Shown here: positions 10,471 to 62,705 of the stretch, in pieces
How the letters are laid out: the number at the start of each line of letters is the position of its first letter
Numbering within the stretch: position 1 is the first letter of the stretch
Origin: Buxus sempervirens
Taxonomy: Eukaryota > Streptophyta > Magnoliopsida > Buxales > Buxaceae
Direction of reading: 5' to 3'
Length of the DNA stretch: 64,000 bases
Assembly (NCBI GenBank): GCA_947561395.2
Contig: OX387186.1
Coordinates: 47,511,220-47,575,219, forward strand
Program-made: the position numbers and the translations under genes
The notes under the pieces: model-generated
Databases searched by the model: none
The model's input: only the letters and a program-made list of their open reading frames with translations
What the model was told of the DNA's origin: nothing

Positions 10471-13400
10471 TTTTTGGGTGTTTTTTCACTGTTTTCGGTC
10501 CGCCCACTTCGCGCTGACCTCGCGCCTAGCGCCCGGAGGTCGGCGCCTACCCTTTTAAGGCCAAATGGCCTATATTTTTTAAATTCCGAAAATACCCCTT
10601 GGACCCAGTGTATGTGATTTTCGTATATTTTGTGTATTTCATGATTTTTGACTGTGGGGTGACATTCTCAAACCAAACCAAATATGCCAATAGGGTTTCC
10701 GGGTCACCCGAGAACCCAACATGGGACCCAGACCACCTGGTCTGACTTGATTTCCAGTGGGCCCTCCAACGGGGCCCACCCAGTCCGAACCATTGAATTG
10801 TGCTTAAATAAAATAATCAAAGGAACTGGGCAGGCCGGACCACTTGAGGCCCACCCAAGCCCTATGTGGGGCATGAATGCTTAAATTAGGTCGTGGTTTG
10901 GCCGAGACCACGGGCAGGGCCTATCGGGCCCATTAAGCCCATTGAACCCAACCAAGTGTAGGGTTTCCAAACCCTATCTCAGAAAGTCTTGGGCTTTCAA
11001 GCCCGAGCCCAGGTAAAGGGCCCCAAGCCCAACACTTGGCCATTTTGGCACAGATTAGAAAGATAAAATCAAAATCACTCGGCAACCAATTGTGGGCCCA
11101 CTCAAGGGCCCACAAAGCAATCCCGGCCCACTTTTGGCATGAAATCCACTTAGCTAATCCAATTTGAACTTCAAATAAAAATCAGTTCATTTGAACCAAA
11201 GCCCAAAGGGCCTCTCAGGTTTAGATTGAGGCCCACCAAGGGGACATATGGGCCACACTTGGCCCACCAAGGAATCTGTGGGCCTTCCAACGGGGCCCGC
11301 CCAATCAGACTCACATCACTTTAATTAAAAAGATAAAATCAAGTAAAGGGACCCACACCACTTTGGCGGTCCCGCCAGACTTAAACCAAAATTGAATGCT
11401 GGATTAGGAATCAAGTGAGTGAGAGACCAACTGAGTTGACTCAAACCAGGGAAACTTATGGGACCCGTCACTTGACGGGGTGGACTGGGGTGTCTACGGA
11501 CTTCCCCAGACCGCAACCGAGAACCTACTTAGAATCTCAAGCCGCAGACCAAGCCTTAGTAAAATAACTTAGGCACCCAGGTGTCCGCCTGCACCCCATC
11601 AGGCGGTGGCGACTCCAACATTCCCGAATTACCCTTTAGGAGGCGTGCCTACCCGTGCGACCACGCGCACAGTAACACCCCGGAATTTTGAGAAATTTTA
11701 ATTAAGATTAATTAAAATTATTAAATAAGGACAATAGAGGATTAAAATTCATTTGGTTGAATTAGTTCATTTGGTTATTGGTTTAATGGGTTATTGGTTA
11801 GTTTAGTGGTTTAATGGATGGTTGGTTGGTTCATTATGCTGAACCGGTTTAAGTTTTAAAAAAATAAAATAAAATAAGACTTTTGTAGATGAAAGAACCC
11901 GTAGGTTCTTTCATCTCAAATGGGCGTTAAGGGTTAGCCGTAAACGAGAAAATGAAAAAAGGGACAGGAAATCGTAGGAGGAGAAATTGCCGAAGGAAGA
12001 AGAAAGAAGAAAGGGGGAAATCGAGTGGAAGAAGAAGGAAGAAAAGAAGAAGAGAAGGGGGCGTTCGTTGGGGGTTTAGCCGTAGAAGAGAAGGAGAAGA
12101 GAAAAGAGAAGAAGAAAGGAAGAAGAAGAAAAGAGAGGAAGTGAAGAAAGGAAGAAAACGCAAAGGAGAAGAGGGTTTGGGCGTGGATTTGTGCGAAATC
12201 TGGTATGTAGCACGCTTTCCTCTGTTTGATCGATCGTCATGGTTTTTCTATTTGTTTCTGTTTGTCGATCGATTGCTGTTGGTTGATTTCGACATCTATT
12301 TGATTTCTGTTGATTGCTGTTGGTCGATTGAGCATGAGTTTGATTGACTACTGTTTGGTTTTTCTTCTCTTTTGGTTTCTGTTTGTCGATTGATTACCAT
12401 TGGGTTTCTGTCGATTGATTAGCATGTTTCTGTTTTGCTGTAAATTATTGTTTGTTTGCAAAAGGTGTTGGGTCGTTTGGCTTGAGAGACCAAAAGCACC
12501 AGTCGCTACGCGTCTGGGGTTTCCTTGGTTGAGAAACCAGTTGATGAAAATTCTGATTTGGCATGAGAGTTTAGGTTCAGAGTTTGTTTTGAGGTTCTCC
12601 AAATTTGATTTAGTTTCATTTGGGTTTGATGGCATGGGGTAAGATGATTCTATTTTAGTTTAGTGTGGATTTAAGTTCTGATTTTAGGTTCTAAATGGGC
12701 ATGAGAGTTTAACTTAGGTTCTGATTTTAGATTTTGATTTGGCATGAGAAAATGCTGATTTAGCATGAGATGGTATGATCACAATAGGTGCTGATTTAGG
12801 TTCTCTGTTATTATACTTTGTATGGCTTAGCTATCCTCTTACCTGGGAGGTTGAGTTAGTAAAAATCTGCAGGATTGTTATAAAATTTGGGTTGTCTTGG
12901 TGATGGCTTGAATTGATATGAGGTTGTTGTTATGCTCTTAGGGCATTCTGAAATTGGATTTTTGGTGGCTCACTCTTTTATGGGTTGTATTTTAGTTGAT
13001 GAGGGTTGTGATGGGAATGATATTGTTAGGGGATATTTGGTTGGGAAGGGAAACAATTTGAAATTAACTCATAGCAGCCCTCTGTCAGGCTACCTTCTGT
13101 TAGAGACTTAAGGTGGGGTTAATAGTCTAAAATTTTGATGACTTGCGAAGGCTAGGAATCTTCGCGTAAAAATTTATAATTGTAGTCTAAAATTTAGTTT
13201 AGGGTATTTTTAGTTGAATGGAATTGGTTTGGGACCAATCGAAACTCGAGTTATTGCAAGAAAAATCCAGAAAAGTAGATGATTTCCATCCAGTAGGTTT
13301 CGAGGTTGTTTGAACCACCTGTAGTAAAACAGCCATAACTTCCTGTAGGAAACTTCGAATTATGAATCGGTTATTGCGTTGGAAACTAGACTCGTAGAGC

Positions 13401-19893: not shown

Positions 19894-21035
19894 GATGGAA
19901 ATAAGAATTCCATGCCATGGGAGCCACCTAATACTTAACATCAACATCGACACCCATTTTTGGAATCTTTCCGCCTTCTCCATTCCTAGTTGCTCATATC
20001 GGTTTTTTTGGGAAAACTTGGTAATTTACTTTTTCAAATTTGACTTAAAAGTTACCTCAATTATTCACGAGTAAATCAATCAACTTGGAATTGAATATAG
20101 TCAATAATATTATTTAGAAATAAAAAATATTTTTTTTTCTTAATTCAACTTGGCATAAAGTCTACTAAACATGGTCCATGTTCCCATCATTTCCGGCTCT
20201 GGGACGTGTATGTGTGGGCATGCCTTGTGTCGATGCAACGAGTCAGAAACTTTGACCCCGGTGCATATTGTATGCAGATTGTAGTTCAAATACAACCTAG
20301 CCACCTATAGATGAATAAACTTCTAATCTAGAGATTGTTAGGAGAATTAGGGTTTGTCCTCTAAGGTTCTTTCACCCAATTTGTGGAAATGAAATGGTCA
20401 TGTAAACATGGTGGTAACCGTTTTGATGGTGAAAGTGTAAACATGGTGGGCTATGTTGTGAACTACGGCCAGCCAATTGGTGTAAAGTAAATGACGGTCA
20501 CGTTAGAGGTGGTTGTTTGATGTAGAGTTGTAGGAATTATGGGCTGTGTAAGGTGATGGCCATTCCAAAGATAAGGAGGAATAAAAAGAAATAAAAGATA
20601 AAAAGAAAACCCATAAAATATCTCGGTACCTGCCGCTTGTTTCCCTATAGTCGTGATTAGAGTATGGAGAGAAGAGATCAGGGGCCACCTTGATGATCAC
20701 CGGTTTTGGGGTGCATATAGTGACTGTCCTAACCTTGGTTGAAGGACTAAGGAAGAATGTCCTTAGCCGTGATCGAAGTAAGGAAGATCTTCATTAGCCT
20801 TACTCATAAAGAGTAGGTAGGATCTCCATGTGTTGTTGCGACAGGAAGCAACAAAACAAGATAGCTACTTCATGCTATGAGGATAGCATGACTGTAGGGA
20901 GGTATGAGAAGACCGGATAGGAGGTCTAAGAAGGCCGAATAGCTACAATGTTGTGTTGATTGAGAGATCAATTTTCTTTGCCTTCAAGCTCCTTTTTATA
21001 GGCTTCTTTACTTGATTGGCAATTTTTGATGCAGG
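19894..21035. other. Intergenic, no gene seen
   Basis: Only short open frames without recognisable products. Positions 20219-20310 loosely repeat 6018-6110. The rest shows no clear repeat. It is the pre-insertion flank of the 13-kb retrotransposon. Confidence 0.4.
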
Positions 21036-21040
21036 GGGAT

Positions 21041-23359
21041 TGTAGACACCCCAAAATTTCATGTTTTTTTGATAAATCTTGAAGCAGAGAAATATTTTAT
21101 TGGAATTTTCAATTCTTAGCATTGGGTTTGAAATCCTTAACCCATTTGAATCCAAAACCACAAAGGAAAAGGCCCAAATTCAATCTTTTGTGCAAAGTCA
21201 AACTTTTTCCCGTTGAATTTTATTGACTTTAGACCCCAGAAAATCAAATATTTTTTAAAGCAAGATTTCAAAATAATTTTTCCCTATAATCAGGTTTTTA
21301 GCAATGTTATTGCATAAATGAATTTTTTGAGATTTTAAATCTTGACGAATACCTTGGTATTAATATGTTGAATCTTTTTACCAGACCTGAAAAACCGGAA
21401 TTTAGCCTCAAACTGGAAAGTTGACTTTTTATTCACTTGGAATTTGGGTCTGGAACTATTTTTAATGGATTCAAATGGGGGGTGTGTTTGCTTATTTACA
21501 TGTAATATCTTAAGTAAATGGAGATTAAAAAATACGAGGACATTTATTTAAACGATATTACATGTAAATAAGTATTGCCTGTGCAGAAACAGGTCAAAAA
21601 AGTGTAAAATCTAGTCAAACATGAAGTGCCCGTAATTTATCTACGGTCTGGTCTTGCCCATAATTCATATACGGTCATGTCGTGCCCGTATTATTAATAC
21701 GGGAACGATACGACCATAGTTCATATACGGACGCGGGCTTTTTTGTGCAAATTTATCCTTTTTCGATTTCTGAGCCTTATCTACACTTAAATCTCTCTCT
21801 GTGAGATTCAAATCCTCTTGTTTATCCATTTGAATCCTCTCGTTTATCCTCTATGGTTCAATGGATTGGCATTATCTCTGTTTTTAACTCAATCTAAAAT
21901 CTTTTGGAACTCTATCTTGGCATATCCCTTGGATCAACCATGCCCTTGGGTTTGCCTATAAATAGAGGGCCTCTCCTCAAGCAAATGACCAAGAATCTGA
22001 AGCCTGAAGAGCTCCAAGTGAAGAAGGGAACCCATGCTTCTTTGCTTTCTCAATCCAGGTAAGTCCATTTTCTCTTTTGATTTTTATTTTTAATTCTAGA
22101 AATAGTCTAATCTTCTCCATTGCTGTAGAATAAGGCCTAGTTTATATTTGTATCCCCAAACCTATCTCCAAAGTACCTCAAGACTCCTCTCTAGCCGTAA
22201 AATGTGAAGAGAGAGCTAGAGGACAGGGGAACAGGTGGATTCTTAGAATAGAACCCTATAATCCGTTCTTCTCTTTTTTTGTAGAATAAGGCCTTTTGTT
22301 TATTTTTGTATTCCCAAACCTATCTCCAAGTACCTCAAGACTTCTCTCTAGTCGTAAAACGTAAAGAGAGAGCTAGGGGAAAAGTGAACAGGTGGATCCG
22401 TAGGGTTGACCCCCATGTGCTATAATCTGTGAGATATGGTGGCTTTTACTATCCTGTTAATGTTTTAATGGTTTTATTTTGAATCTAGAGGGATTATATG
22501 AATCTATGATGTTTATAGCATGAGATCCCCACTTCCTCTCACAGTTTGGATTTTTCTCACCATTGCACCCACATCACTGTTTTCTTGATTTTGGTGATAT
22601 TTGGCTAGGATTCTGGATTTACCATGATTTATACGGTAGATCTAAAACCAAAAGCCTAAAAGTAACCTATAGGGTTTCATGATGTGATTTTAAAATTGTT
22701 TTAATCTTGGAGAAAGGATCCTATAGTCTAAACTCTTTCTTTTGATGTTTTTTCATCAACATGGGTTGAGTGAGGGTTCTATTTCTCCACTAATGAGAGA
22801 TCTGGATAAGATCTGTATTCCAGATAACTTTATTCTTCAATGTTTTAATCAAGAGATTTCAATCTAGTTTTTCAACCTTTTAATGGTTTAGCCTAAAACC
22901 AGTTTTTTCAGGTTTCTCTTTAGATTGGTTTTCTTTGATTTTTATCTCAATTTTATTTTAATCATGAAACCCTTAGAATGGTATGATCATATTGAAGGTT
23001 CTGAATTAATCAGGCTATTCATATGAAAAACCATATACTTTTGTCACTTTTACGATTTTTTCTTTATTAAGCAAGCCTTCTTTATTTTTAACATGAACAA
23101 TACCTAGCAACCACCTTGTGTGGATGAATAGGGGTGCCTAACACCTTCCCCCATTCATAACCTAATCCCCTTACCCATCTTTGGTTGTTTTTGCTTTGTA
23201 TTTTAAAATAGAGTTATTTTTACTCTAATTTCTATCTCCTTTATTTGATTTGATATTTTGGTGTCCATTCACACCTAAACAGAATGGTGGCGACTCCTTG
23301 TTTTAGTAAATCCCGTGTGATGATTAAGAAGTCATTACATTGATTTTTCATGTCTCACA
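21041..23359 (+). repeat. 5' LTR (A1), 2319 bp
   Basis: Begins TGTAGACACC and ends TGTCTCACA. TATA box TATAAATA at 21957-21964. A cluster of CCGTA/TACGG palindromes lies at 21629-21730, upstream of the TATA box, in U3. About 22088-22250 and 22258-22440 contain an approximate tandem duplication (a GTAGAATAAGGCCT start, CCTCAAGAC and GAGAGAGCTAG further on). Confidence 0.92.
21957..21964 (+). promoter_or_regulatory. TATA box of 5' LTR A1
   Basis: TATAAATA followed by GAGGGCCTCTCCTCAAGC. The same box and context occur at 32830-32837 in the 3' LTR, at 8224-8231 in the older LTR A fragment, and on the minus strand at 61299-61306. Confidence 0.65.
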
Positions 23360-23361
23360 AT

Positions 23362-23379
23362 TGGCGACTCCACTGAGGA
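23362..23379 (+). other. Primer binding site
   Basis: TGGCGACTCCACTGAGGA, two bases after the LTR end. It matches the PBS at 3634-3651 except for one base near its distal end. It fits the tRNA-Arg-type primer of Tat/Ogre elements. Confidence 0.85.
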
Positions 23380-24595
23380 ATTGTAGATTTCAGCCTTTTG
23401 GTATATTTGTTCATGTTTTTGTGTTTTGATTGGCTTTCTATTTTGTGTTCTTAAGCATGTTTGATATGTTTAAATCTAATTTATTATTTAAAAGCTCATG
23501 GGGTAGAAACATGTTTAATTCTGATTTATAGGATTGTTTCTAAAAACATGTGTAGGGGGCTTGTTTTGCCAAACCATGCTTATTTCTTGTTGTATTTTCA
23601 TGATAGCATGTTTTAATTTTCAGCATGTTCTCTATGATGTATTATTTGGTTGTATAACATGATCACATGTTTGCATGTTCGGGTGATTTTTGTGAGCATG
23701 CTTAGGTGCTATAGGATTGCTTTGTTTACTTATGTTTGTTTGCTTTAAATATGTTTCCTGTTATGCCTTGTTTTGTATATACGCATGGCTGCAAAAAAGA
23801 TTGGCAAGGGGCCAAGACGTTGTGAATGCACCCAATATTTTACAAATGCACTGTGCACATTTTACTTTTTACATAGCCTACCCATAACCTATAGGAAGTT
23901 AAACCCGAATGTGTGTAGCTTGGCACAACGAGGTCGTTACTTCGAAAAGCGAAAGTGAAAACATTCACCTTAGAACTTTGAGTCAATGATGTGATAACAA
24001 TGTGGATCTTTGATTCTGGTTATCACTAGACTTGAGATCTAAGTTGTCATTAAGCCAAAACCCAAAACCCAAAACCCCTACGTTTGAAGGTGGAAATACA
24101 CGTTTTTAGCTAAAGTACACAATTACGTGGGGAAATGGGTTTGTAATTGAGGGAAGGCCATTTGCATGGTTCACAAGCTAAGGCATAATGTGGATGCCAT
24201 ATTGAAGGTAAACAAGGTAACGAGGTGACCTTAAGTTTAGCATTACTTTCACGTCATGCAAATGTCATGGTGTCCATATGTTTGGGATGAAGTTGTTACC
24301 AATGAGGTTTTAAGATTGGTGTAGCCTATAGGAAGAGTTTTTTTAACTCTTCTCAGAATGGATCCTACCCAAAGTTCATATAAGAGGCAACCAAAGGTAC
24401 CAAAGTTCTGAGTATGGTGTCCAATTTTGGAGGGAACATGTGCCTTCATGAGCATTCATGCATTTTTGCAAATAGGGTCAAAGTCCACTTTGGGACAGTT
24501 TAGAAGCCTTTCAAGGGTGAACAATATGTTTGGATGAACAATCAAGGTGATCAAATCATGTAAAAAATGGAAAAAAATGAAAAAAAAAAGTCCGT
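23380..24595 (+). other. 5' leader of the retrotransposon, no gene
   Basis: Untranslated leader between PBS and the structured region. It has T-rich stretches with frequent GCATGTTT and CATG motifs (23400-23760). One short open frame (23773-23958) has no recognisable product. Confidence 0.45.
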
Positions 24596-24715
24596 AAACC
24601 GCATTTTCTATGCGGACTGGACTGGACCGCATTTGTTATGCGGTCAAGGCTTGACCGTAATTTAAGTGCAATCAAGTCTAGACCACATTAACTATGCAGT
24701 TTTTGCGGAAAATCC
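24596..24715 (+). repeat. CCGCAT/ATGCGG palindrome cluster in leader
   Basis: Two perfect short hairpins with 6-bp arms: 24599-24615 (CCGCAT, TTTCT, ATGCGG) and 24627-24643 (CCGCAT, TTGTT, ATGCGG), followed by weaker variants to about 24715. It resembles the U3 clusters of the LTRs, but here it is in the internal region. Confidence 0.8.
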
Positions 24716-25002
24716 AATTTTAGCAATTTTTTCTACCAAATCTTGTTCCTTTAACCTTTAAGTGATACAAACAATTAATAAACACTTCAATAAGGGTAAG
24801 GGGTATCCAAATTCTTCTAAACTCATTCAAATCAAAATGTTAAGCTTATTTTAGGAAATTTTACCTAATTTGAACATGTAACTTAACCCAATAGATGAAG
24901 ATGATAATGGAAAATGAGCTTGAATAAAATATTTCAAAAAAAAAAAAAAAGAAATAAAAATGTGAAACAAAATTTCTTGAAGATTCAAAATATCCCTGGG
25001 CC

Positions 25003-26498
25003 TCTGAAAGCCTTTGAATTTCAGACTTTTTTTCAAAAAAAAATCATTGGGCCTCTGAAATCCTTAGAATTTCAGACTTTTTTTCAAAAAAAAAAAAAAA
25101 TCCTTGGGCCTCTGAAAGCCTTTGAATTTTAGACCTTTTTCAAAATCCCTGGCCCTCTGAAAGCCTTTGAATTTCAGACCTTTTTTAAAATCCCTGGGCC
25201 TCTGAAAGCCTTTGAATTTCAGACATTTTTCAAAATATCCCGGGGCCTCTAAAAGCCTTTGAATTTCAGATCCTAAAATATCCATAGGCCTCTGAAAGCC
25301 TTTGAATTTCAGATCCTAAAATATCTATAGGCCTCTGAAAACCTTTGAATTTCAGACCTTTTTCAACCGCATAAGCCCTTGGAAGCTTAAGTAATTCCAA
25401 GACACTCCATGATTTGTCTAAAAGCTTTTATTTTTAGACATTTCATACCTTGTGAGACCTGTTGGAAGCCCTAAAATATTCCAACACCTCTTTGGTTGGT
25501 CTTTTTCGTACCAATCAATCCTTTTGTAGGACTTGTTGGAAGCCCTAAAATATTCCAACACCTCTTTGGTTGGTCTTTTTCATACCAATCAATCCTTTTG
25601 TGGAACCTTTGGAAGCCCTAAAATATTCCAACAACTCTTTGGTTGGTCTTTTTCGTACCAATCAATTCATATCTTTGTGGGACCTGTTGGAAGCTCTAAA
25701 ATATTCCAACAACTCTTTGGTTGGTCTTTTTCGTACCAATCAATTCATGCCTTGTGGGACCTGTTGGAAGCCCTAAAATATTCCAACAACTCTTTGGATG
25801 GTCTTTTCGTACCAACCAATTCATAGGCCTCTAAAAGCCTGGGTAATTCTAGAAACCTTTGCTTGGGCCGTCTAAAAGCCTCTGAATTTTAGACAAATCA
25901 TTTCTATGGGCTGTCTAAAAGCCTCTGAATTTTAGACAAATCATTTCTATGGGCCATCTAAAAACCTCTGAATTTTAGACAAATCATTTCTTTGGGCCGT
26001 CTAAAAGCCTCTGAATTTTAGACAAATCATTTCTGTGGGCCGTCTAAAAGCCTCTGAATTTTAGATACAACATTTTTGGGCCGTTTGAAAGCCTCTGAAT
26101 TTCAAACATCATTTTCTTTAGGCTGTCTATAAGCCTCTGAATTATAGATACATATTATAGGCCTTCTAAAGCCTGAATTTAGAAAATCATAGGACTTCTA
26201 AAAGCCTTTAAATTTCAGAACTCATATCTTGGGCCATCTAAACGCCTCTGAATTTTAAACAAATCATTTCTTTGGGACATCTAAAAGCCTCTGAATTTTA
26301 GACAAATCATTTTAGACTGTTTATAAGCCTCTAAATTATAGACACATATCATAGGCCTTCTAAAGCCTGAATTTAGAAAAATCATAAGACTTCTGAAAGC
26401 CTTTAAATTTCAGAACTCATATTTTGGGCCTTCTAAAAGTCTCTAAATTTTAGACATTTCTTATTCTTTGGAACCTTTTGGAAGCCCTTAAATTTCAT
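25003..26498 (+). repeat. Tandem array of about 30 hairpins with co-varying arms
   Basis: Units of roughly 40-77 bases each contain an inverted repeat around a GCCTCTGAA-like loop. Arms seen: TCTGAAA/TTTCAGA (25003-25025 and later), CTTGGAA/TTCCAAG (25378-25401), TGTCTAAAA/TTTTAGACA (25415-25440), GTTGGAA/TTCCAAC (25461-25485 and four more, one of them lacking the terminal G-C pair), GTCTAAAA/TTTTAGAC (25870-25894 and several more), GTTTGAAA/TTTCAAAC (26083-26107), GTCTATAA/TTATAGAT (26125-26149), TTCTAAA/TTTAGAA (26164-26184), TTCTGAAA/TTTCAGAA (26391-26415). Many units are preceded by GGGCC or GGGACC. It lies just 5' of gag. Open frames across it are repeat-derived and not called genes. A structural role in RNA is inferred. 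Confidence 0.9.
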
Positions 26499-26750
26499 AT
26501 TCTTTTAGATGGTCATTTATACCAACCACTTCCCTTCAAGGTCAATTTCAACCAAACAAAGAAAAGAAAAAATATAAAAAAAATAAAAAAACAAAAAAAT
26601 CCAAACTCATGTTCACCTAACCTACATATATGCATTCATAGGTATGTGACTGAGATTAAATTGACACTGATATCTCTCTTTATTTTTCTTTTGCCAGGTA
26701 TCAAGATATTTGCAACCATAGCTCCTGTGAATATATCAAGAGCTCGCACC

Positions 26751-28334
26751 ATGAATCCCACTAAGAATCAAGCCGATGTTCCTATTCAAGACTTTGCCCT
26801 CCTACAAGAGCAAGTGGCAGGACTTGCCCAAATGCTAGAATACTTACTGGCGGTGCAGGCCCAACAAGTCTAAGTCCAAAACCAAGCCTCCACTTCCAAC
26901 CAAGCACCTCCACCTCAAACCAACATTCCACTTCCAGTTCAACCTATTCCTGAACCCATTTCTGAACCTACCCCTGAACCTATACTGATCAGGGAGGAGA
27001 CGGTTGAGTCTGAGAAAGAGAAGGAAAAAGAGAGAATGAGGGATGAGATGGAAAAGAAGTTCATCCATAGGCTGGAAATGATTACGGATGAACTGAGGGA
27101 GGTGAAAGGGGTGAATAACTTTGGAGGCACCAATTTCAAAGATTTGTGTCTATACCCCGATGTATGCTTACCGGCCAAATTCAAGTGTCCAGACTTTGAC
27201 AAGTATGATGGCACGGGCTGCCCTATGAGCCATCTGAAGCTCTATTGTGGGGCCCTATGCCAATTCGGTCGGGATGATGGCATACTGATCCAGCTCTTCC
27301 AAAGAAGCTTGACTGGGGCTGCTTTGAGGTGGTTTGCCACCATAGATCATGAAAGGATTAGAAGGTGGAAGGACCTAGCGGATGCCTTCTTGGCCCAGTA
27401 CAAGTTCAATTCTGAGATCATGCCAGATAGGTACGATGTGATGAGGATGAGCAAAAGTAAGGACGAATCTGTAAGGCAATATGCCAAAAGATGGAGGGAG
27501 ACTGTCTCTTAGGTCATGCCATCCATGCTGGAGCCAAAAATGATCTTCACTTTTATCAGCACACTGGGGCAACCGTTTTACAGTCACTTTGTGGGTCAAA
27601 CTACCACCAACTTTGCTGTCCTAGTGCAAGTGGCAGACAGAATTGAAGATGGGATCAAGTTTGGGAAAATAGCTGATTACTCTGCAATGTTAAACTAGGA
27701 AGCTTCCACCACTTTCTTTACACAGAAAAAGGATAATGGTAATGAAAGAAGAAAGAATGAAGAAAGGAGAGAAGCAGAAGTGAATATGGTGCAAATTCCC
27801 AGGGAACCCTTTCAAATCAATGCCCATCCACCTCCTATCAAGCCAACCCATCAAGTTCCTTTGCTGCCTATCCAAATTAATGTCCCTTCTGCACAGCTTG
27901 TAAAGGAGGAAATAGAAGTAAGGAAGAGAAGAGAATCTTCTAAACTGCCTATGAGCCCATCTGAACTTTTGCCTACCTTATTTCAGAAGAGTTATGTGGC
28001 TTTGAAGTTGCCAAATCCTCATGCAAGTAAGGGGAAGGGTTATGATTCATCTGCACTCTGTGATTATCATATGAACACTCTAGGGCATACCACAGATCGT
28101 TGCTTGGCCCTAAAGCATGCAATTCAGGATTTACTGGATAATAACTCCTTATCATTCAATTCAGTTACACCTATCCCACCTACCGATAACAATGGGGCAG
28201 GTAGCTCAAATGCAGTAGGGGCAATTTTTCCAGTGAAAAAAGGATTTGACCCTTCTCAACTTATTGCTCCGGTTGGTACCACAATCCGAGTTTATTTTGA
28301 AAAAGAAGATGAATGGGGCCATGTGGAGAAATAG
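26751..28334 (+). pseudogene. gag of Tat/Ogre-type retrotransposon, three in-frame stops
   Basis: One frame of 528 codons from ATG at 26751 (MNPTKNQADVPIQDF) to TAG at 28332-28334, with no frameshift. It is broken by TAA at 26871, TAG at 27510 and TAG at 27696. The N-terminal part is proline and charge rich. The core resembles retrotransposon gag: SHLKLYCGALCQF, SLTGAALRWFATID, WKDLADAFLAQYKFN and VRQYAKRWRE. Near the end, DYHMNTLGHTTDRCLALKHA resembles the CxxH..GH..C segment that ends Ogre gag. Gag forms the particle that packages the element's RNA. Each internal stop can be explained by a C-to-T change in CAA or CAG. No protease or RT frame follows. Confidence 0.85.
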
Positions 28335-30989
28335 ACTCACACATGAGCAGATTTTAAGCTGAAGTTGAAAGAAAATGAAATGACAGGTGAAAAGGCAGAG
28401 GAGGTGCAAACAATTCCATTTGAGCAGTTTGAGCAAACAAATGGCCTAGCACTGGAAGTTGAACAGGAATTCAGTATGGACAATAATGATTGTCCAAAGG
28501 GTATAGAATCACTCTTCATACAAGAATAAAATGAAGCAGAGGTAATTGAAAAAGGAAAATCCCAAGAAAAAAAGAAGAAGATTCAAATGAAAAGATTGAG
28601 GCTAAGTTTAAGCTTCCATTGATTGACTGGGCTGCAATCCAGATTCCATATCAAGGAATGTCACTTCTTTCAGAAACTGAGCATAACACCCCAGGGAAGG
28701 AGATCATCCCAAATCATTGAAAGTTTGCCTCACTCAGTAGGAGAAAGATATTTTCTAAAAAAGAAAGAAAAGTCAGCTTTTGCCTTTAAGAATATGGGCA
28801 GTTTTCGAACTCCCACGCTCTTTGAAAAGAAACCTCCATAAAAAGAATGGACATTTCCTGAGGGTCCTAAGAAGCCTTGTTCTCAGGAAGTGATTTTAAT
28901 AAAGGCTCTTCAAAAAAAAAAAAAAGATTTTCCCCTTTAACATTTTTCTTGGGGAAAAAAAGGAAAATTTTTTCAATAAGGTCCTTTTTATTTGAGTTAT
29001 ATCTCCCATTGAATTTCATTAAGTTGAATATGACTTCGAAATTAGGCTCAATTTTTTTAGACCAAAATCGAAGAAAAAGACATTTTATATGAAAATTCAA
29101 ATTTGTTTAAGTGTCATGAGAAGAATATTTTGCAAAATTATGAAATGACCAATTTTATGGCCTTTGGAACCAAAGATGACCCACAGAAGAGATAGAAGAA
29201 GATTTGAAGTTCCTTCATTAGAATACAGAAAGGATCGCACCACTTGCTGATTCGTTCAAAGGGAGGTCAATAATATTGTTTGAAGAAATTTTGGGGCTTT
29301 GCACTTGAAAATATGGGAGAAGATTTGACATTTTCGTTGGAAATCGAATTGTGCATCATTTGATGGAAAGAATCCAAATTCATAAGATTGATCAAAAGGT
29401 GAAGAAAATGTTCATAACAGAGGTTCTATTTGAAGAGGCTTTTATCTTGATAGAAGGTGAAGAAAAAAAAAGAAAAAAGAAGAAAAAAAAAAGAAAAGAA
29501 GAAAATTTTCCTAAACTAGTCATATAGTACAACTTTACCAAGTCTGAAAATTCAATTTTTTCTTAAAATGATAAGAGGGCTTTCTTTCTTATATCCCCAA
29601 AAATTTTTAAATCCCTAGTTAAGCCCTTTGAGCTTGATACATTTTTCCAAGTAACTTAAACTGAGAATTGTAACCCCACACTGGGGCAAATTTATTAAGG
29701 CATAAAAAAAAAGGAATGAAGGGACAATTGTTGAAGTTCAAAAGGGATTTCGAAGATGTTTTCAGAAAATGGGGCAGATAAATGAAAAAAAAAAAAGAAA
29801 AAAAGAAGGAAAAAGGAAGAAAGAAGAAAAAGAGATCATCAAATGCTATGGGATATTTGGAGAATGTCTTCAAAATTGTGAAGAAAAGAATGGAAAAAGA
29901 ATTTCAATATTGAGGAATAAGTTTCAAATGAAAAAATCAAAGTGGAGGAAAAACTTCATTACTGGGGGCAATTTTGTATTCATTCGAAGGGAAGAAATGC
30001 CTTAAGAATTGCAATTTCAGTAAACCCATTTAATCATATGGTATTTAAGCCTTTTATTCCTTTTCTTTCTAAACAAACACCAAGCCTTCGTTTCGTCCCA
30101 TTCATAAGTCCTCTTTGATTAAGAAATTTTGAATTAAGGCAATTTTGACTACATGGTTGCTGGTGATGAAGGATTCAAAAAAAAAAAGGAAAAAAGGAAA
30201 AAAGGAAAAAAGGAAAAAAGGAAAAAAGGAAAAAATGAAAAAATGAAAAAATGGAGAAAATGTAGTGAAAACCCGGAAGGGCGCTACATGGCAAATAATC
30301 AGCTATCTACAAGAAGGAAATCGTCAAAGAGGAAAGTCCAGAATTGGCATAGATCCATGTGAAGTCCTCATGTTGGTGGTTATTTTGAGATACAATCACT
30401 CTTCAAATGATTGAAGAAAATTCTCTTTTCAAGACTGAAGCAACATAATCAGAACTATAATATGAAGCTTCTGTGAACAAGTTGATGGCCATCAAAATTG
30501 CCATTAGGAAATTGTTGTTGAAGTTGAAGTCATAAATTCTCATATCATGGATACAATGGAGAAATAATTGCTCTTCAATTGGATGAAGGAAGATGTCTTT
30601 CTAGACTGGGGCAAAATAGTCAGATTGAAAAAGTCGTCATATTTGGAGCATCAATTGACAAGTTGATGGTCATGGGAATGATTCTAAAGGTTCTGAAAGC
30701 TTATTTTGGTCTTTCTTCATTTTCTGAAATAATCTTCTCATTATTCAACTTGATTTTAATTCTTTTGGACTATATGCTAATAAGTGATTGGATCATTTTT
30801 CAACAAAAAAAAAGGCACAAAAAGCAAAAAACTATATTTTTGGCCCATAATGAGCATCTGTCTTTTCATAAAACATTGGTTTTGCATGCATTAGAGAATT
30901 CTGAGGCTACTAATATAAAACCTATTTATTATTTTTGTATTTGCATTCTTTTATTAGGGTTTCTTTTTGGCAAAGGTTAAAAAAAGGGA

Positions 30990-31021
<32 letters not shown>

Positions 31022-31894
31022 GAAAAAAAGAAAAAAAGAAAAAAAAGAGAAAAAGGAAAAAGGAGGATCATCTCTGCTGAGGGGCAAATACTTTTTCAAG
31101 CAACCAAAACCGGGGCAGTCAAGCCTTAGTCCTTGGATTTTCATTGGAATGAATTACAACATCTGGAAGAAGTAGTCAAGCCTTAGTCCTTGGATTTAAA
31201 AAAAAAGGGAAGCTTCAAAGCAGTTGCATGTTTTCTCCGTTAAACAAGGGTTCCCAATTTTTTAATCATGAAGAAGAATTTTACCGGGGCAGTAAGAAGG
31301 AATGAAGAAGAGATCATGGGTAGTAAGGGCATGAGATTAGATCATCAGATTATGATTCTCAAATCCATCAATCAAGAAGAGAGCATTCACTTGAGCAATT
31401 AAAAAACATGAAGATAGGTTATGGGCAGTAAGGGCACATACATCGTTATTGAGAGAGCAAGAAAATGAAGAAGCAAAAGCAAGTTGCAGAATATTCATGC
31501 ACAGGTTTGAGCATCAAATGGTACCCAGGTATATCAAATAAGAAAATCAATCAGGAAAATTCAATAAAATATTTCCTTCCTTATTGTTGAGTTGAAAAGT
31601 GAAAAACATCAAAAGCAATTAAGTTTGCAGAGGTTAATTTAAATCCACCTTCTTTTCAAAATTTGCTTGTCTCATATTTCTTTTCATAGCCACGAGAGCT
31701 CCAAGAAATCTGAGATAAGGAAGAGACGCCACCCCATCAGACTTCAACCAGGGGTTTCATTGGCTATCTTCAAATCCATGTTTTTTTATCACTACTTTCT
31801 TTGACCAAAGCAAGTTCAATTAATGAAATGTCTTTCAAATGTGCAATTTTGAGTTGTGTCTGTTCTTTGCTGTTCATTGTGCTACAACTCCAGC
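28335..31894 (+). other. 3' internal region without pol, A-rich
   Basis: About 3.5 kb with only short open frames. No RT, RNase H or integrase motif was recognised in any of the listed frames. It is rich in GAAA, AAAAAAG and GAAGAA runs. Repeated GGGGCA words (for example near 29685, 30610, 31110, 31285) recall the PPT. Positions 28600-28720 retain a short gag-like tail in one frame. It looks like a degenerated or replaced pol region. Confidence 0.5.
30170..30260 (+). repeat. (GGAAAAAA)n low-complexity run
   Basis: Repeated GGAAAAAA and GAAAAAAT units within the 3' internal region. A related (GAAA)n run lies at about 30985-31060. Confidence 0.9.
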
Positions 31895-31903
31895 AAAGAG
31901 GGG
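31895..31903 (+). other. Polypurine tract
   Basis: AAAGAGGGG, a few bases before the 3' LTR start at 31908. This is the expected primer site for plus-strand DNA synthesis. Confidence 0.75.
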
Positions 31904-31907
31904 CAAT

Positions 31908-34234
31908 TGTAAACACCCCAAAATTGCATGATTTTTGATAAATCTTGAAGGAGAGAAATATTTTATTGGAATTTTCAATTCTTAGCATTGGGTTTGAGAT
32001 CTTTAACCCATTTGAATCCAAAACCACAAAGGAAAAGGCCAGAATTCAATCTTTTGTGCAAAGTCAAACTTTTTCCCGTTGAATTTTATTGACTTTAGAC
32101 CCCAGAAAATCAAATATTTTTTAAAGCAAGATTTCAAAATAATTTTTCCCCGTAATCAGGTTTTTAGCAATGTTATTGCATAAATGAATTTTTTAAGATT
32201 TTAAATCTTGACGAATACCTTGGTATTAACATGTTGAATCTTTTTACCAGACCTGAAAAACCGGAATTTAGCCTGTAAATGGAAAGTTGACTTTTTATTC
32301 ACTTGGAATTTGGGTTTGGAACTATTTTGAATGGATTCAAATGGGGGGGGGGGGCGTTGTTTGTTTATTTACATGTAATATCTTAAGTAAATGGAGATTA
32401 AAAAATACGAGGACATTTATTTAAACGATATTACATGTAAATAAGTATTGCCTGTGCAGAAACAGGTCAAAAAAGTGTAAAATCTGGTCAAACATGAAGT
32501 GCCCGTAATTTATCTACGGTCTGGTCTTGCCCATAATTCATATACGGTCATGCCGTGCCCGTATTATTAATACGGGAACGATACGACCATAGTTCATATA
32601 CGGACGCGGGCTTTTTTGTGCAAATTTATCCTTTTTCGATTTCTGAGCCTTATCTACACTTAAATCTCTCTCTGGGAGATTCGAATCCTCTTGTTTATCC
32701 ATTTGAATCCTCTCGTTTATCCTCTATGGTTCAATGGATTGGCATTATCTCTGTTTTTAACTCAATCTAAAATCTTCTGGAACTCTATCTTGGCATATCC
32801 CTTGGACCAACCATGCCCCTGGGTTTGCCTATAAATAGAGGGCCTCTCCTCAAGCAAATGGCCAAGAATCTGAAGCCTGAAGAGCTCCAAGTGAAGAAGG
32901 GAACCCATGCTTCTTTGCTTTCTCAATCCAGGTAAGTCCATTTTCTCTTTTGATTTCTATTTTTAATTCTAGAAATAATCTAATCTTCTCCATTGCTGTA
33001 GAATAAGGCCTAGTTTATATTTGTATCCCCAAACCTATCTCCAAAGTACCTCAAGACTCCTCTCTAGCCGTAAAACGTGAAGAGAGAGCTAGAGGACAGG
33101 GGAACAGGTGGATTCTTAGAATAGAACCCTATAATCTGTTCTTCTCTTTTTTTTTGTAGAATAAGGCCTTTTGTTTATGTTTGTATTCCCAAACCTATCT
33201 CCAAGTACCTTAAGACTCCTCTCTAGCCGTAAAACATGAAGAGAGAGCTAGGGGAAAAGAGAACAGGTGGATCCGTAGGGTAGACCCCCATGTGCTATAA
33301 TCTGTAAGATATAGTTGCTTTTACTATCTTGCTAACGTTTTAATGGTTTTATTTGGAATCTAGAGGGATTCTATGAATCTATGATGTTTATAGCATGAGA
33401 TCCCCACTTCCTCTCACAGTTTGGATTTTTCACACCATTGCACCTACATCACTGTTTTCTTAATTTTGGTGATATTTGGCTAGGATTCTGGATTTATCAT
33501 GATCTATACGGTAGATCTAAAACCAAAAGCCTAAAAGTAACCTATAGGGTTTCATGATGTGATTTTAAAATTGTTTTAATCTTGGATAAAGGATCCTATA
33601 GTCTAAATTCTCTCTTTTGTTGTTTTTTCATCAACATGGGTTGAGTGAGGGTTCTATTTCTCCACTAATGAGAGATCCGGATTAGATTTGTACTCCAGAT
33701 AACTTTATTCTTCAATGTTTTAATCAAGAGATTTCAATCTAGTTTTTCAACCTTTTAATGGTTTAGCCTAAAACCAGTTTTTTCAGGTTTCTCTTTAGAT
33801 TGGTTTTCTTTGATTTTTTATCTCAATTTTATTTTAATCATGAAACCCTTAGAATGGTATGATCATATTGAAGGTTCTGAATTAATCAGGCTATTCATAT
33901 GAAAAACCATATACTTTTGTCACTTTTACGATTTTTCTTTATTAAGCAAGCCTTCTTTATTTTTAACATGAACAATACCTAGCAACCACCTTGTGTGGAT
34001 GAATAGGGGTGCCTAACACCTTCCCCCATTCATAACCTAATCCCCTTACCCATCTCTGGTTGTTTTTGTTTTGTATTTTAAAATAGAGTTATTTTTACTC
34101 TAATTTCTGTCTCTTTTATTTGATTTGATATTTTTGTGTCCATTCACACCTAAACAGAATGGTGGCGACTCCTTGTTTTAGTGAATCTCGTGTGATGATT
34201 AAGAAGTCATTAAATTGATTTTCCATGTCTCACA
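31908..34234 (+). repeat. 3' LTR (A2), 2327 bp
   Basis: Begins TGTAAACACC and ends TGTCTCACA, and is followed by the TSD copy GGGAT. TATAAATA at 32830-32837. The palindrome cluster at about 32503-32610 is conserved with the 5' LTR. A G-run at about 32344-32355 is expanded relative to the 5' LTR. Confidence 0.92.
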
Positions 34235-34239
34235 GGGAT

Positions 34240-35848
34240 CCAAGACAGATGATGCTGAGCTGTTAGATTGCACGTTGATGGCACTGAGACACCATGAGTT
34301 GGCAGATTAGTGTAAAGGCAAGAAGTGATTGTGATATTTTCCTAATTGGGGCAGTTTTGAATGCGTTTCAGTATTTTGGCCATAACTTTGGCTACAGGTG
34401 TCGGAATCGTGCATATGACCCCAATTCGGAAAGAACTTTTTGGAGTACACACCGTTAGTGGGTGTGCATCTTTTCCGACATCAAATTCCATTATTGTCCC
34501 CTCCGAATCACTATTTTTAGTTATTTTTTGCTATTTCGGGTAATATTTCATTTGTCAATTAGAAAGTGATTTTAAACCAGATTTAGGCCAAAATTTTCGC
34601 AAATTGCTTATTTTATTCTGTATTCCATTTTAGCATGATTTACGAGATTTTGCCGTTTTTAGTTACATTCGGTTACAGATGATTTTTGGCTATAAAGTTC
34701 GGTTTGTGGACTGATTTTAGGCATTATTTGATTTAATAATATTCAGTTGAACCTCAGAGACGTGTTCTCTATGTTTTGGGCAATTTTCTTGTGTTCTTCC
34801 CTATGAATCAACTGTTGGAACTAGCCTGCAGAATAATCACTATTCTGTCCGGCGTCAATTTTCCTAACCAATCTCACTCTCTCAATCAGTTAGGTAGTTG
34901 GGACCCCACCTTGCACGTTGCTAACTTCCCTAACTAAATCCACTTCTGCAATCGGTTGGAAGGTTTCCCAACTGATCCCACCTTCTATGTAATGGGGGTT
35001 TCAAACGGACCCCACTCCCCTTTTTTAGAGAGTCCCTTGCCATATGGATTCTCTTTTTCTACCTGGCTACGACGGGTGTAAATAGTCCAATTTAAGATAA
35101 CTTCTCAATTTAGTAAGGCACGCTAGAATTTGTGTCAACCTAAACATGGTCCAATTGATGACCATTACCTACCAAAATTGAAAGAAGATGAACACCTCAC
35201 AAAAATCTAACCTACCATTTAGACTCCCAATAATATTATTTCTCAATTTGTCTTTGATGGGTATCACCCCTTAGTCCATAATGCATTTTTAAATCTATCA
35301 AAAAAATAAAAATAAATTGTTGTTTAATTAAAAAAAAAAGAAAAAAAAGGTGAGCCCCACCCCTTACCTCATTCTCCCAGCAGCCACCAAATAGGAAGGA
35401 GGAAAAGTCATTTTCTTTTCCTTGGCCTGATTCGTTGTCTCTACTCTCATATATCTCCTCCACAACAAAAAGCATACAACGCCGTATACAACAGCCTTGT
35501 GATTGGTGCTTTGTATTTAAAAAATAACTTTTTAAAATATAAACTATTACTTTTTTATTCCTTAAATTAAAGGAGCCAATCACAAGCGACCATATAACGA
35601 TTGTATTTTAAAAATAAAATTTTCAAAAATGCACGTAAATCACGAGCGGTGGCTAGTTGTGAAATTTTCCACATTTCCCTCCTGAGCCTGAAAGAGTCAT
35701 CTGTCGGACCAAATGCCTTAAAAATCTCGTCTTTTCCTTCTCTTTCGTTGCGTCACAAGATTTGGTTTTGGATTCAGACTATCTGTATTTTTCTGTTCTT
35801 GTTTTTTTTTCTCTTCTCAGAGGCTCTTCCCTTCGGCCCCGAAGAGTG
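34240..35848. other. Intergenic region upstream of IGPS
   Basis: No gene is recognised. The 34240-35110 part is the right-hand pre-insertion flank of the retrotransposon. Positions 35116-35274 are the second copy of the 159-bp dispersed repeat. Positions 35330-35350 are A-rich. The last 250 bases include CCAATCACAAGC (35574) and a pyrimidine-rich stretch (about 35725-35825) that probably holds the IGPS promoter and 5' UTR. No convincing TATA box was found. Confidence 0.45.
35116..35274. repeat. 159-bp dispersed repeat, copy 2
   Basis: Near-identical to 6171-6329 in the same orientation. It lies about 575 bases upstream of the IGPS start codon. Confidence 0.75.
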
Positions 35849-38800
35849 ATGGAGGGAATCTCAATCAGAGCTACGCCTAGGTTTTCGTTTTCGAGCAATT
35901 CTTGCTTACGACGCGTACGAAATTTCACGATTTCGAGATCGGTTCAAGGAATTCCGATGGAGGATGGCAAGAGAACGGGATTCACCGCCTCTATTCGAGC
36001 TCAACAGGTCAGTTTTGGATCTCTGTAAGTGTTCGACTTGGGTTTTCGGTGCTTGATTGGGTGGATTTGAGTTCTGTAGCTTAATTTAATTTTTTCTTTT
36101 GACTGTTTGGGTTCGGATATGTATACGATTTCAAGCTCTGTATCGCTTGAAATATCGAGGATTAGGGTTCCAGTTAGATTTTTTTGTGTTTTATATTGTC
36201 TGAAGCATACATGGTGGTTGGTTGTCAAAGAGAGAAGTTTTACAAGCTTAAAAGCTTGATGTGTTAGTCAAGTACCTGTGGCCGTTTTATTTCCGGATCG
36301 ATGCAAGTATTATAGAGACATTAGATGTATTAATTTTGAACGCCTAGACAGTGGAATTTACAGTTTTAGCTTTTATCTTTTGTCATCCAAAGAATGATTT
36401 CGGTTGATTAAAGAATTAAGTTACTGTGCACCATTAAATCTGTTAAATGTGACTGCCTTCGATTTTAAATGCAGAAGTTCGTTTGAAATCCGAGTAATTG
36501 ATAAATCACATTAACAGTTCTAACATTACAACATCTTGTTGTTGATGCTTGTACCAGGGGTCTGGCGATAGTGCTGCTATAATTTCCCCGACCAGTGATG
36601 TCGAGGGAAATGCTCTTGAAATCAAAGAGTGGGAATTGGGGAGATATCAAAATGAAGTAGCTGCTAGCCAGGGTATCAGAATTAGGAGAAGGCCGCCAAC
36701 TGGACCACCCTTGCATTATGTGGGCCCTTTTGAGTTTCGGATTGAGAACGAGGGCAACACTCCTCGTAATATTCTTGAGGAAATAATATGGAATAAGCAT
36801 AAAGAAGTTTCACAGGTACCATCTCACCTGGTTTCTGATTTCCGTTTTTATTCTTTTTTTTTTCTTCTAAATTTCTGATTTCAAGATATTTTTCTATTCG
36901 TATTTTATCTTTTCAGTTAAAGGAGAGAAAGCCTCTCTATGACCTGAAGAAAGCTCTCGAGAATGCTCCACCTGCTAGGGACTTCATTGGAGCTTTGAAG
37001 GCATCCTATAAGCGAACTGGAATGCCAGGTTTAATTGCTGAAGTCAAGAAGGCTTCTCCAAGCAAAGGAGTAATAAGACAGGATTTTGATCCAGTAAGCC
37101 TGCTATCTTTGCTATTATTTTCTTGGTTTAGATTGATGTCCTTTTATAAAATTCAGGGTGAAATTGAACCAGTTACTATTTGTTTGCTTATGATCATATC
37201 AAATAGCAACAAGGTTATTATTCTTCCTGCATAATGTATATGTTGGCTTTACATGTTCTTTCGTTTTATGTTTGAAATAAATATCCCTCATGTCAAGTTG
37301 GGTTTTTTCTTTTAAGTTCTTGGGCCCGTTGGGATTTAATTTCCTCTCCTGTTCTTATAGACTCTGTTCTAATGGCAACAAATCCAGTGTAACTTAGTTG
37401 TTTGTATCAGCTTCCAACTCCTTCAGCACGAGCCGAAACAGAGTTATTCGTAAGCACTGTTCAAGGCATGCACATCTGATGCAATGATGCCTGCCTTCAT
37501 TGTAAAATCACATGCCTTCATATTAATCATTGATATACTTAGAGCAGATACTAAAACTGATCATAGGCTGCCTCCCGCTCTGGAATGATAATGACAAGTC
37601 TCCAAAGAACCATTCTTACTCGTATAAAAGCTAAACTATCTGATTTTGATATCTTAATTTGTTGTCCTTTGCTCTTGGGGTTCTCAGATCATGTGCTTGG
37701 AATCCTAGATTTTTGGGAGGAAAAAAAAACAGAAAATGCCAGAGAAAGCACTTTCTCTTGTTTGGTTGGAACTCGAAATAGGGATTTAAGAAGAAAATTT
37801 GTTAAAAGATTTTCTCATTGGGGATGAAGACCTTTCTCTTCCAAAAGGTTTGAGATTTTGAAGGAAAATAAGAGAATGACAATATAACTTCCTTTAGTAT
37901 TCTAACTTAACCTACTAATATCTCTTTGCTTTATTTTGCGTCAACCATCCTTGCTGCAATATATAAGATTGTATTGGGAAAAATTATCAGATATGATCAA
38001 AATCGACCTTTTCTATATTTTTCTCTTCCTATCCAAATGCTTTATCTAAATGCTTGAAAGGAAATATAAACCATTTCTTTTCTTGTCATTTCTTTTGCTG
38101 TTTTGTTTTTTTTTCTTCCTAAATCTAATGTTACAAACATAGCCATGGCATTGGAAAAATTCAATCTGGAAATGAGCAATTAAAGATGGGTGGTACTCTT
38201 TAAATTTCTACATCCTATATGCTCTGCTTGGAACTTTGTAGCAAGGATGGTTACTTTCCACTTTTTGGCCTGAGAAAGCATAAGAAAAGAAACCTTAAGC
38301 ATATTTAGAATCACAATTATGTGGCTTCACTTTATTTTACCATTTAGTATGCCTTTATCCTCAGATTGTATGGGTTACATTGGGGTCCAAATTTTTCATT
38401 ATAGGTTCAAATTGCTAAATCTTATGAGGAAGGTGGAGCAGCTTGCTTGAGTGTGTTGACAGATGAGAAGTATTTCCAGGTACAAATCATTATTTGGCTT
38501 CAAAATTGCTGGACATTATGAATTATGGCTGGAGACTGTTTGGTTTGGACTTCCATATACTAAACTAATCACCTTCATGTATCTTTTGTTTTACTGATGG
38601 AAGGGGAGCTTTGAAAATTTGGTAGCTGTACGGAATGCCGGAGTAAAGGTCTGCCTTGTTTAACATATGCTTTCACGCTGCAGATTTCATACCTGTTCTA
38701 TGATTGCATGTGAAATAGATTTTTATACTATGTTCTAACATGGGAAAAAATGCAGTGTCCTCTTCTTTGCAAAGAATTTATCATAGATGCTTGGCAAATC

Positions 38801-61886: not shown

Positions 61887-62705
61887 GGTCCCCACTTTTT
61901 TATAAAATTTGGATTTTCCACATATTTGCCCCTACAGCACTGTTTTCTTGATTTTTGTGATTTCAGGCTAAGATCCTGGATTTATCATGATCAATATGAT
62001 AGATCTGGATCCAGAAGCCTGAAAGTAACTTCTAGGGTTTCATGATGTGGTTTTTGAGTCGTTTTTCATTATTAAGAGAAGACCCTACGGTCTAAATTCT
62101 CCCATTTTGATCTTCTTCATCAATGTGGGTATTTTTTGTTTTGATTTTCAGATTTAATGTGAAATTTGGGCTCTACCTATGTCCTGGACTATTCAAGTTC
62201 AATTTTGAAATATTTTATAAAAATCATATTTTTCCAGATTTCTAGAATTTAACTTGAAGCCAGATTTTTGGATTTTTCACTTTAAATTGATTTTATCTCA
62301 ATTTTGTTTTGATCATGAAACCCTAGGAATGGTGTGATCATATTTGAGAGTTCTGGATCAATCAGACTATTCGTATGAAAAAGCCATATATTTTTGTCTT
62401 TTTGTAATTTTTTCTGATTTTTATAGCAAGCTTTTTCCTTTATTTTAACATGAACAATACCTGGCAACCACCTTGTGTGGATGAATAGGGGTGCCTAACA
62501 CCTTCCCCTGTTCATAACTTAATCCCCTTACCCATCTCTGATTGTTTTTAGGAGGGTTATTTTTACCCTAAAATTGCCTTTTGTGCTTATTTGATATTTT
62601 GGTGTCCATTCACACCTAAATTGAATGGTGGCGACTCTTTGTTTTATTCAAACCCGTGTGATGATTGAGGAAGTCATTGGATTTGATTTTTTCCCATGTC
62701 TCACA
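61887..62705 (+). mobile_element. 3' fragment of LTR A, plus strand
   Basis: Matches LTR A from the TCCCCAC block (about 22530) to the terminal CATGTCTCACA at 62705, with the shared blocks GGTTTCATGATGTG, GGGGTGCCTAACACCTTCCCC and GAATGGTGGCGACTC. It abuts the start of the oppositely oriented LTR E at 61886/61887. Confidence 0.8.

Follow-up and report, generated by a model that had tools for sequence, protein, structure and literature searches.

A tandem array of about 30 units, most of which probably fold as H-type pseudoknots in the sense RNA, occupies the leader of an LTR retrotransposon in the genome of Buxus sempervirens. It lies in a window of 64,000 nucleotides, the whole stretch of DNA analysed, and arrays of this family were collected from at least 72 loci (the window and L009-L079), a lower bound, with genome searches scoring 40 of 3200 and 40 of 1255 candidates. 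Our best reading of the array, held tentatively, is that it would act as a repeated packaging mark on the genomic RNA.

The array-bearing element looks like Ty3/gypsy. It is flanked on both sides by a 5-bp target duplication (GGGAT), and a sequence resembling its primer binding site (PBS) occurs at the same place in relatives. The array lies between the PBS and gag, where the first-pass annotation had located it, starting 1.6 kb after the PBS (~23362) and ending 0.3 kb before the gag ATG (26751). Pfam searches matched Retrotrans_gag (PF03732) in the gag piece 26874-27509 and no domain in the gag piece 27699-28331. In the ORF list of the window copy, no pol was seen by eye in 28335-31905, before the 3' LTR. 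TR-GAG elements have gag without pol between their LTRs, and the window copy, in which LTRs, PBS and gag are present, fits this gag-only type. The stretch 29459-31062, where pol would be expected, holds purine-rich simple repeats and lysine-rich open frames, a similar frame being found in the relative L097. Tandem repeats of 28 nt with short palindromes (CCGTA...TACGG, CCGCAT...ATGCGG) were seen in the LTRs (21626-21690 and 32499-32563) and in the leader (24598-24657).

Table 1. Features of the array-bearing element in the window. In splice sites the slash marks the exon-intron boundary; in units it separates the two arms.
Feature	Position	Strand	Details
LTR retrotransposon holding the array	21041..34235	+	LTR pair 96.5% identical; ends read
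5' LTR	21041..23359	+	LTRs 2.3 kb
TATA box in 5' LTR	21957..21964	+	TATAAATA; kept in 7/7 relatives covering the site
Probable splice donor	22056..22064	+	CAG/GTAAGT; intron would start at 22059
Primer binding site	23362..23379	+	TGGCGACTCCACTGAGGA; directly after 5' LTR
A-unit block	24998..25356	+	TCTGAAA/TTTCAGA, loop GCCTTTGAA; upstream RGGC pairs with loop GCCT in most
Unit G	25371..25404	+	pseudoknot AAGC-C-CTTGGAA-GCTT-AAGTAA-TTCCAAG
Unit F	25411..25440	+	GTCTAAAA/TTTTAGAC, loop GCTTTTAT; without full stem 1
Five B units	25459..25822	+	GTTGGAA/TTCCAAC, loop GCCCTAAAATA; stem 1 imperfect, GGAC/GCCC with A.C in most relatives
Unit H	25823..25856	+	TCTAAAA/TTCTAGA in window, TCTAGAA/TTCTAGA in most relatives; loop GCCTGGGTAA
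C, K, T, D, E units	25865..26456	+	partly a 194-nt higher-order repeat; strict pseudoknots at 25865, 25908, 25994, 26037, 26078, 26120, 26159, 26353
Probable branch point, polypyrimidine tract and splice acceptor	26667..26697	+	CTGAT; ...CAG/GTA
gag, one frame	26751..28334	+	in-frame stops at 26871, 27510, 27696
3' LTR	~31909-34235		

Requiring arms of 6 bp or longer, we counted 29 non-overlapping stem-loops in 25003-26530, whereas 100 dinucleotide shuffles gave 6.1 on average and 13 at most; raising the minimum arm to 7 and 8 bp left 25 against 1.8 (maximum 5) and 11 against 0.75 (maximum 3). Equal-length window tiles not overlapping the array contained at most 15, 8 and 4 such stem-loops, respectively. 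Four of the 29 are T-runs or alternative folds. A loop-anchored reading gave 28 units in the window, or about 30 once G and F, which it missed, were added (the one-letter class names are labels coined in this analysis). The array of about 30 hairpins described in the first-pass annotation was thus recovered in its place, and the arms and coordinates quoted there are correct, for example those at 26083-26107, 25378-25401 and 26164-26184. The unit loop is mostly GCCTTTGAA or GCCTCTGAA, with loops of 7, 8, 10 and 11 nt in some classes, and mismatched units also occur in the window (e.g. 25106, G.U; 25243, A.C). Each B unit is followed by a second stem-loop, TTGGT...ACCAA (GATTGGT/ACCAATC in relatives), which has no crossing helix. 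An Rfam search of 21000-36000 yielded 0 matches above the gathering score. A protein-coding array was ruled out, as the unit lengths (~43, 45 and 74-78 nt) share no common frame. A double-stranded DNA palindrome site for a dimeric protein was likewise ruled out as the main reading, given that classes with different half-sites adjoin.

The conserved hairpin loop, a central point of the first-pass annotation, is indeed kept, but reading it as the 3' half of a second helix explains it better and would make the unit a pseudoknot rather than a plain hairpin. The start of the loop, GCCY, is complementary to an RGGC located just before the 5' arm; units with loop GCCT have AGGC upstream, and those with GCTT mostly have AAGC. 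The geometry is of the H type, with a stem 1 of 4 bp, an L1 mostly of 1 nt, a stem 2 of 7-8 bp and an L3 mostly ending in AA. In the window array the two helices cross (order a b a' b') as read from complementarity, and it is from these complementarities that the folding of the RNA is predicted. When 1263 units were anchored on their arms, with upstream and loop left free, RGGC/GCCY was found in classes A, C, T, K, D, G, H and I, and an AAGC/GCTT form of stem 1 in G and part of H; hairpins collected without regard to class agreed with these counts. A loose stem-1 test, applied to hairpins with perfect arms (4/4 pairs, G-U and four offsets allowed), was passed by 312/355 A, 321/387 C, 138/142 T, 54/57 K, 35/37 D, 26/28 H and 21/23 G hairpins, and by 0/29 of the unrelated stem-loop J. 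Full stem 1 is present in only 3/103 B and 1/14 F units, B keeping GGAC/GCCC with an A.C in 74/103. An alternative A/T-rich fold passes the loose test in 46/72 cases.

Stem 1 itself varies in sequence. Its second pair from the outside was counted in 79 units of classes G and H, leaving upstream and loop free, and is AT in 46, GC in 27, GT in 3 and another combination in 3, with no A.C; among 46 distinct G/H/I units it is AU in 24, GC in 18 and GU in 4. The switch from AAGC/GCTT to AGGC/GCCT takes place inside one arm class: TCTAGAA of class H occurs with both types (26 GC, as AGGC/GCCT, and 10 AT, as AAGC/GCTT), and CTTGGAA of class G is found with AAGC/GCTT and, in one mixed unit, with AGGC/GCCT.

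A strict scan required four standard pairs in stem 1 (at least three Watson-Crick and at least two G-C), an L1 of 1-2, at least six Watson-Crick pairs in stem 2 and an L3 of 3-7. It returned 12 sense and 0 antisense matches in the window array (200 shuffles: mean 0.03, maximum 1); the remaining 62.3 kb of the window yielded 3 in sense and 1 in antisense. Across 71 loci, it returned 914 matches in sense orientation against 17 in antisense. The RGGC/GCCY kind, with R allowed at each of its first three positions, accounts for 883 of the 914, and the GGTG/CACC kind for 8. Within the limits set by the scan, L1 measures 1 nt in 784 and 2 nt in 130 of the 914, and L3 is mostly 5 nt and ends in AA in 873/892. 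Twelve loci fetched after the pseudoknot idea gave 162 sense matches and 1 antisense match; found by array similarity, they provide a test of consistency, not of independence.

The terminal pair of stem 1 is a fixed G-U in classes A, C, T and K, where it alternates with A-U; a terminal G-U is natural in the sense RNA and a mismatch on the other strand. An L1 of 1-2 nt over stem 2 and an L3 of 3-6 nt over a 4-bp stem 1 suit a sense-strand H-type knot under the groove-spanning rule; on the antisense strand, 1 nt would need to cross 7 bp. Folded singly, the typed class forms gave stem 1 for D and stem 2 for all others; the two helices are thus in competition, except where a knot lets them form together. 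A nested minimum free energy fold of the array scored z -2.75 against 20 shuffles, and also paired neighbouring units together.

In the first 60 loci, the loop-anchored reading gave 1304 units in ten classes (class F being missed by this reading). The same arm classes recur in similar order in other copies, the recurring order being A(n)-G-B(n)-H-(C,T,K)(n)-D-A/E-C with many variations among loci, and array length varies widely between loci. Arm classes are copied by unit duplication, and few of the changes are independent. The arms are paired in the main classes, in line with the first-pass annotation.

Three loci were sampled downstream of gag. One of them, L096 (part of the element of L036), carries RT and RNase H with RVT_3 (PF13456) right behind them. 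This place of RVT_3 matches that of the aRH in Ogre and Retand, which lies behind the RH in the passages cited from PMC6317226; an extra RNase H of archaeal type (aRH) in this position characterises the Tat clade of Ty3/gypsy. L097 has a lysine-rich frame resembling the one in the window copy, and its 1.2 kb read downstream shows no RT-like frame; L095 has, by eye, only a gag-like piece downstream. The array of L036 holds 13 strict pseudoknots in sense and 0 in antisense. The array family includes pol-bearing and gag-only members: an array of this kind is present in the element of L096 and L036, which has RT-RNase H, and is therefore no peculiarity of gag-only elements. The earlier description of a gag-only element is appropriate for the window copy, with its three in-frame gag stops and no pol seen in the ORF list, but not for the array, which extends to a pol-bearing relative. 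TR-GAG elements and the array family have gag without pol in common, but the array is no defining part of this condition, one pol-bearing relative having it.

In piecewise alignments of other loci to the window, divergence was ~0.09 in stems and loops, 0.17 in spacers and 0.11 in the other leader, which agrees with the earlier proposal of a many-copy structured element under constraint. Pairs 1, 2 and 5 diverge by 0.02-0.03, and pairs 3, 4, 6 and 8 by 0.11-0.31. Within classes, mean divergence was 0.04-0.09 in stems, 0.02-0.03 in loops and 0.15-0.25 in spacers, single stem sites reaching 0.27 in A and C and 0.51 in B; spacer divergence may be overestimated where variable lengths are misaligned. 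The first gag piece diverges by 0.093, 0.066 and 0.311 at codon positions 1, 2 and 3, indicating that the lineage has been under selection; the values in the later gag piece are only 0.091, 0.079 and 0.113.

The matched arm differences from which the first-pass annotation argued are real between unit classes, where pairs 3 to 8 swap standard pairs, but they do not represent about 30 independent events, as the classes spread by unit duplication. Class-level change events are few, about a dozen by eye, and we read the covariation pattern as few old events amplified by duplication. Under a phylogenetic null, computed with our own R-scape-like script (FastTree-based for the 9-nt-loop units) and not with R-scape itself, no pair was individually significant; on this test, which the first-pass annotation had named as a possible refutation, the covariation it anticipated was not supported as stated. 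Among 640 distinct 39-mers of 9-nt-loop units, the best pair (p3) ranked 1 of 741 with E=1.0, and same-branch double changes were not enriched. Among the G/H/I units the best values were E=0.83, 0.85 and 4.9; the proposed pairs 4-17, 8-31 and 9-30 ranked 1, 2 and 4 of 561 column pairs, 4-17 having changed twice on the tree via G-U and 9-30 by double changes on three branches.

In column shuffles, three measures stood at 0/500 and two others did not. Over both helices, the 46 distinct G/H/I units show 79 double-change cells; the shuffled value is 32.6, and 0/500 shuffles reach 79. Pairing covers 96.0% of cells, compared with 88.4% (0/500); stem-1 pairing in this set, 98.9%, is partly forced, since the search held the outer pair constant and admitted only R or Y at most other positions. 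Shifting the partner columns by 1-3 destroyed the excess of double changes. In 132 distinct C/T/K units (from 166), aligned with about ten rows out of register that were retained, the corresponding values were 82 against 26.5 (0/500) and 90.0% against 85.0% (0/500). Neither the pairs changed on both sides (158/500 for G/H/I, 364/500 for C/T/K) nor the number of pair types (423/500 and 107/500) exceeded shuffles. Pairing fraction was also compared with simulated trees: the observed value was reached in 0/300 simulations for G/H/I, in 1, 0 and 0 of 100 for stem 2 (A, C/T/K and all units) and in 0, 0 and 12 of 100 for stem 1, the last with all classes in one register. We set this comparison aside as support for covariation and take it to show constraint only, because the null places changes on deep branches and the real ones lie at the tips.

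Wobble asymmetry, as a test of the RNA strand, is mixed and not decisive. In stem 2 the GU:AC ratio is 88:101 for A units, 41:13 for C/T/K units once the outermost pair is left out, 12:11 for the 46-unit G/H/I set and 37:47 for the 132-unit C/T/K set; in stem 1 it is 7:2 in the G/H/I set and 19:21 in the C/T/K set without the outer G-U. In A units, C-to-T and G-to-A changes at CHG sites make up the four commonest mismatches and are about equally numerous; we read them as decay of silent copies.

Splice-site-like motifs in the 5' LTR and just before gag are conserved. Of 15 LTR pieces fetched, 9 matched and 8 relatives cover the donor, whose GT and +5 G are kept in 8/8 and whose last exon base is G in 5/8 and A in 3/8; the acceptor AG is kept in 31/36 aligned relatives. 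These motifs make it rather likely that a leader intron of ~4.6 kb, containing the array, extends from the LTR donor (22059) to just before gag (26697). With 65 ATGs between the PBS and gag, plain scanning to gag is unlikely, and splicing would be the simplest way to translate it. If the array is inside an intron, only unspliced RNA, which also carries the PBS, would keep it. The junction pattern has 119 matches in the genome with at most 3 mismatches (63 + 56; control 0); the 7/7 inspected are unspliced acceptor contexts, and no spliced genomic copies were found among them. In sister families, the acceptor context resembles the donor exon end (CAATCCAG, followed by GTA).

The proposed packaging mark would work as follows. 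Tandem H-type pseudoknots on the sense strand of the genomic RNA, placed within the leader intron between the LTR donor and the gag exon, would be retained in unspliced genomic RNA and lost from spliced gag mRNA. A packaging signal of the retroviral type (psi) is an element of the genomic RNA that splicing removes and that Gag binds for encapsidation. They would present one shape in many copies, stem 1, L1 and the A-ending L3 being constant and stem 2 free as long as it is paired. The array could thereby serve as a multivalent docking site for multimeric Gag, whether encoded by the element itself or by a pol-bearing relative; Gag presumed to land there would mark the genomic RNA for packaging. 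Packaging is our best guess because the array would be multivalent, confined to genomic RNA and common to gag-only and pol-bearing copies. A broader scenario strikes us as doubtful: that the lineage evolved a leader-intron array of ~30 knots as a multivalent mark, in which stem 2 diversifies but stem 1 and L3 persist, so that differing sequences present a single shape to one Gag or host protein, while gag-only parasites compete with pol-bearing relatives by array copy number.

The position inside a probable intron also suits a candidate constitutive-transport or intron-retention element, by which unspliced genomic RNA would escape splicing and leave the nucleus; this is the main rival, discussed with the cited part of PMC12786077. 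We consider it rather unlikely, and the same position fits packaging too. About 30 units are, moreover, many for such an element.

The array might instead be maintained by mutation, with no function: template switching in reverse transcription or replication would copy arm to arm, and hairpin-rich units would duplicate easily. The spread of arm classes by duplication, the widely varying array lengths, GU and AC intermediates that are about equally common overall and the lack of a significant pair under the phylogenetic null are all compatible with this. Such upkeep would account for the matched arms, yet it is unlikely, as copying of arms fails to explain why pairs 1, 2 and 5 diverge so little and leaves the kept RGGC and GCCY, the crossing second helix and the 914 to 17 strand bias without explanation.

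The long leader, with its many ATGs before gag, could also point to translation control, the array shielding or bypassing them as an IRES, shunt or ribosome block, and pseudoknots often act on ribosomes; the conserved acceptor right before gag, however, suggests a gag mRNA without the array, and we regard this role as improbable. A host silencing target or source, that is, a small-RNA hotspot like the palindrome-rich parts of maize Sireviruses, where such hotspots are known, is the least credible reading, as stems of 7-8 bp are short for Dicer and the kept core would not be explained. In its favour are the high-copy symmetric motifs of Sirevirus LTRs (PMC2829016, passages cited).

Those Sirevirus motifs resemble the array in being many short inverted repeats in a non-coding part of a plant LTR retrotransposon, but, in the same passages of PMC2829016, they sit in the LTRs upstream of the TATA box, have a CGG-CCG core and belong to Ty1/copia; the array lies between the PBS and gag of a seemingly Ty3/gypsy element, is AU-rich and has a second, crossing helix. 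The closest functional parallel is the 5' UTR of foot-and-mouth disease virus (FMDV), where, according to the cited portions of PMC11734982 and PMC9203018, several putative pseudoknots stand in tandem in a long non-coding 5' leader and at least one is needed for encapsidation. FMDV differs in having 2 to 4 knots instead of ~30 units and in being a picornavirus, with no LTR or reverse transcription, and no homology is claimed. Retand (Tat) elements, as far as the cited part of PMC11963269 describes them, share a long internal region with tandem repeats, and some are non-autonomous, but their repeat arrays are found after pol and ahead of the 3' LTR rather than in the leader. BARE parallels the proposed scheme in using a spliced RNA for Gag and a separate RNA for packaging; unlike the window element, it is Ty1/copia with a 104-nt intron inside gag, and the cited passages of PMC3735527 describe no leader array. 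Our searches of the open-licence literature brought up no pseudoknot array in the leader of an LTR retrotransposon.

The array may bear on how the genomic RNA of plant Ty3/gypsy elements is selected. If the fold is true, the array would be a natural set of one RNA shape in many sequence versions, in which effects of shape and of sequence on the binding of Gag or an export factor could be separated directly, and copy number could be tested as a trait in parasitic versus pol-bearing elements. It would also be a natural case of stem diversification with a constant binding face; in MS2 arrays, engineers diversified the stems while the binding face stayed constant.

The three sense matches of the strict scan outside the array are alike among themselves. 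A second candidate H-type pseudoknot, GGTG-T-(7 nt)-CACC-(4-5 nt)-(7 nt), was seen at 179-205, 11580-11606 and 62601-62628 of the window, with a weaker version in the element's own 3' LTR (34135-34162). It sits just before T(G/A)GCGACTC in several LTR-like stretches, and its outer stem varies in a matched fashion (CCATTCA/TGAATGG, CCGCCTG/CAGGCGG, CTACCTG/CAGGTAG, CTGCCTG/CAGGCAG). Several ACCGGCGGT/ACCGCCGGT inverted repeats follow right after an LTR-like end at 62705-62820, where they perhaps belong to another mobile element.
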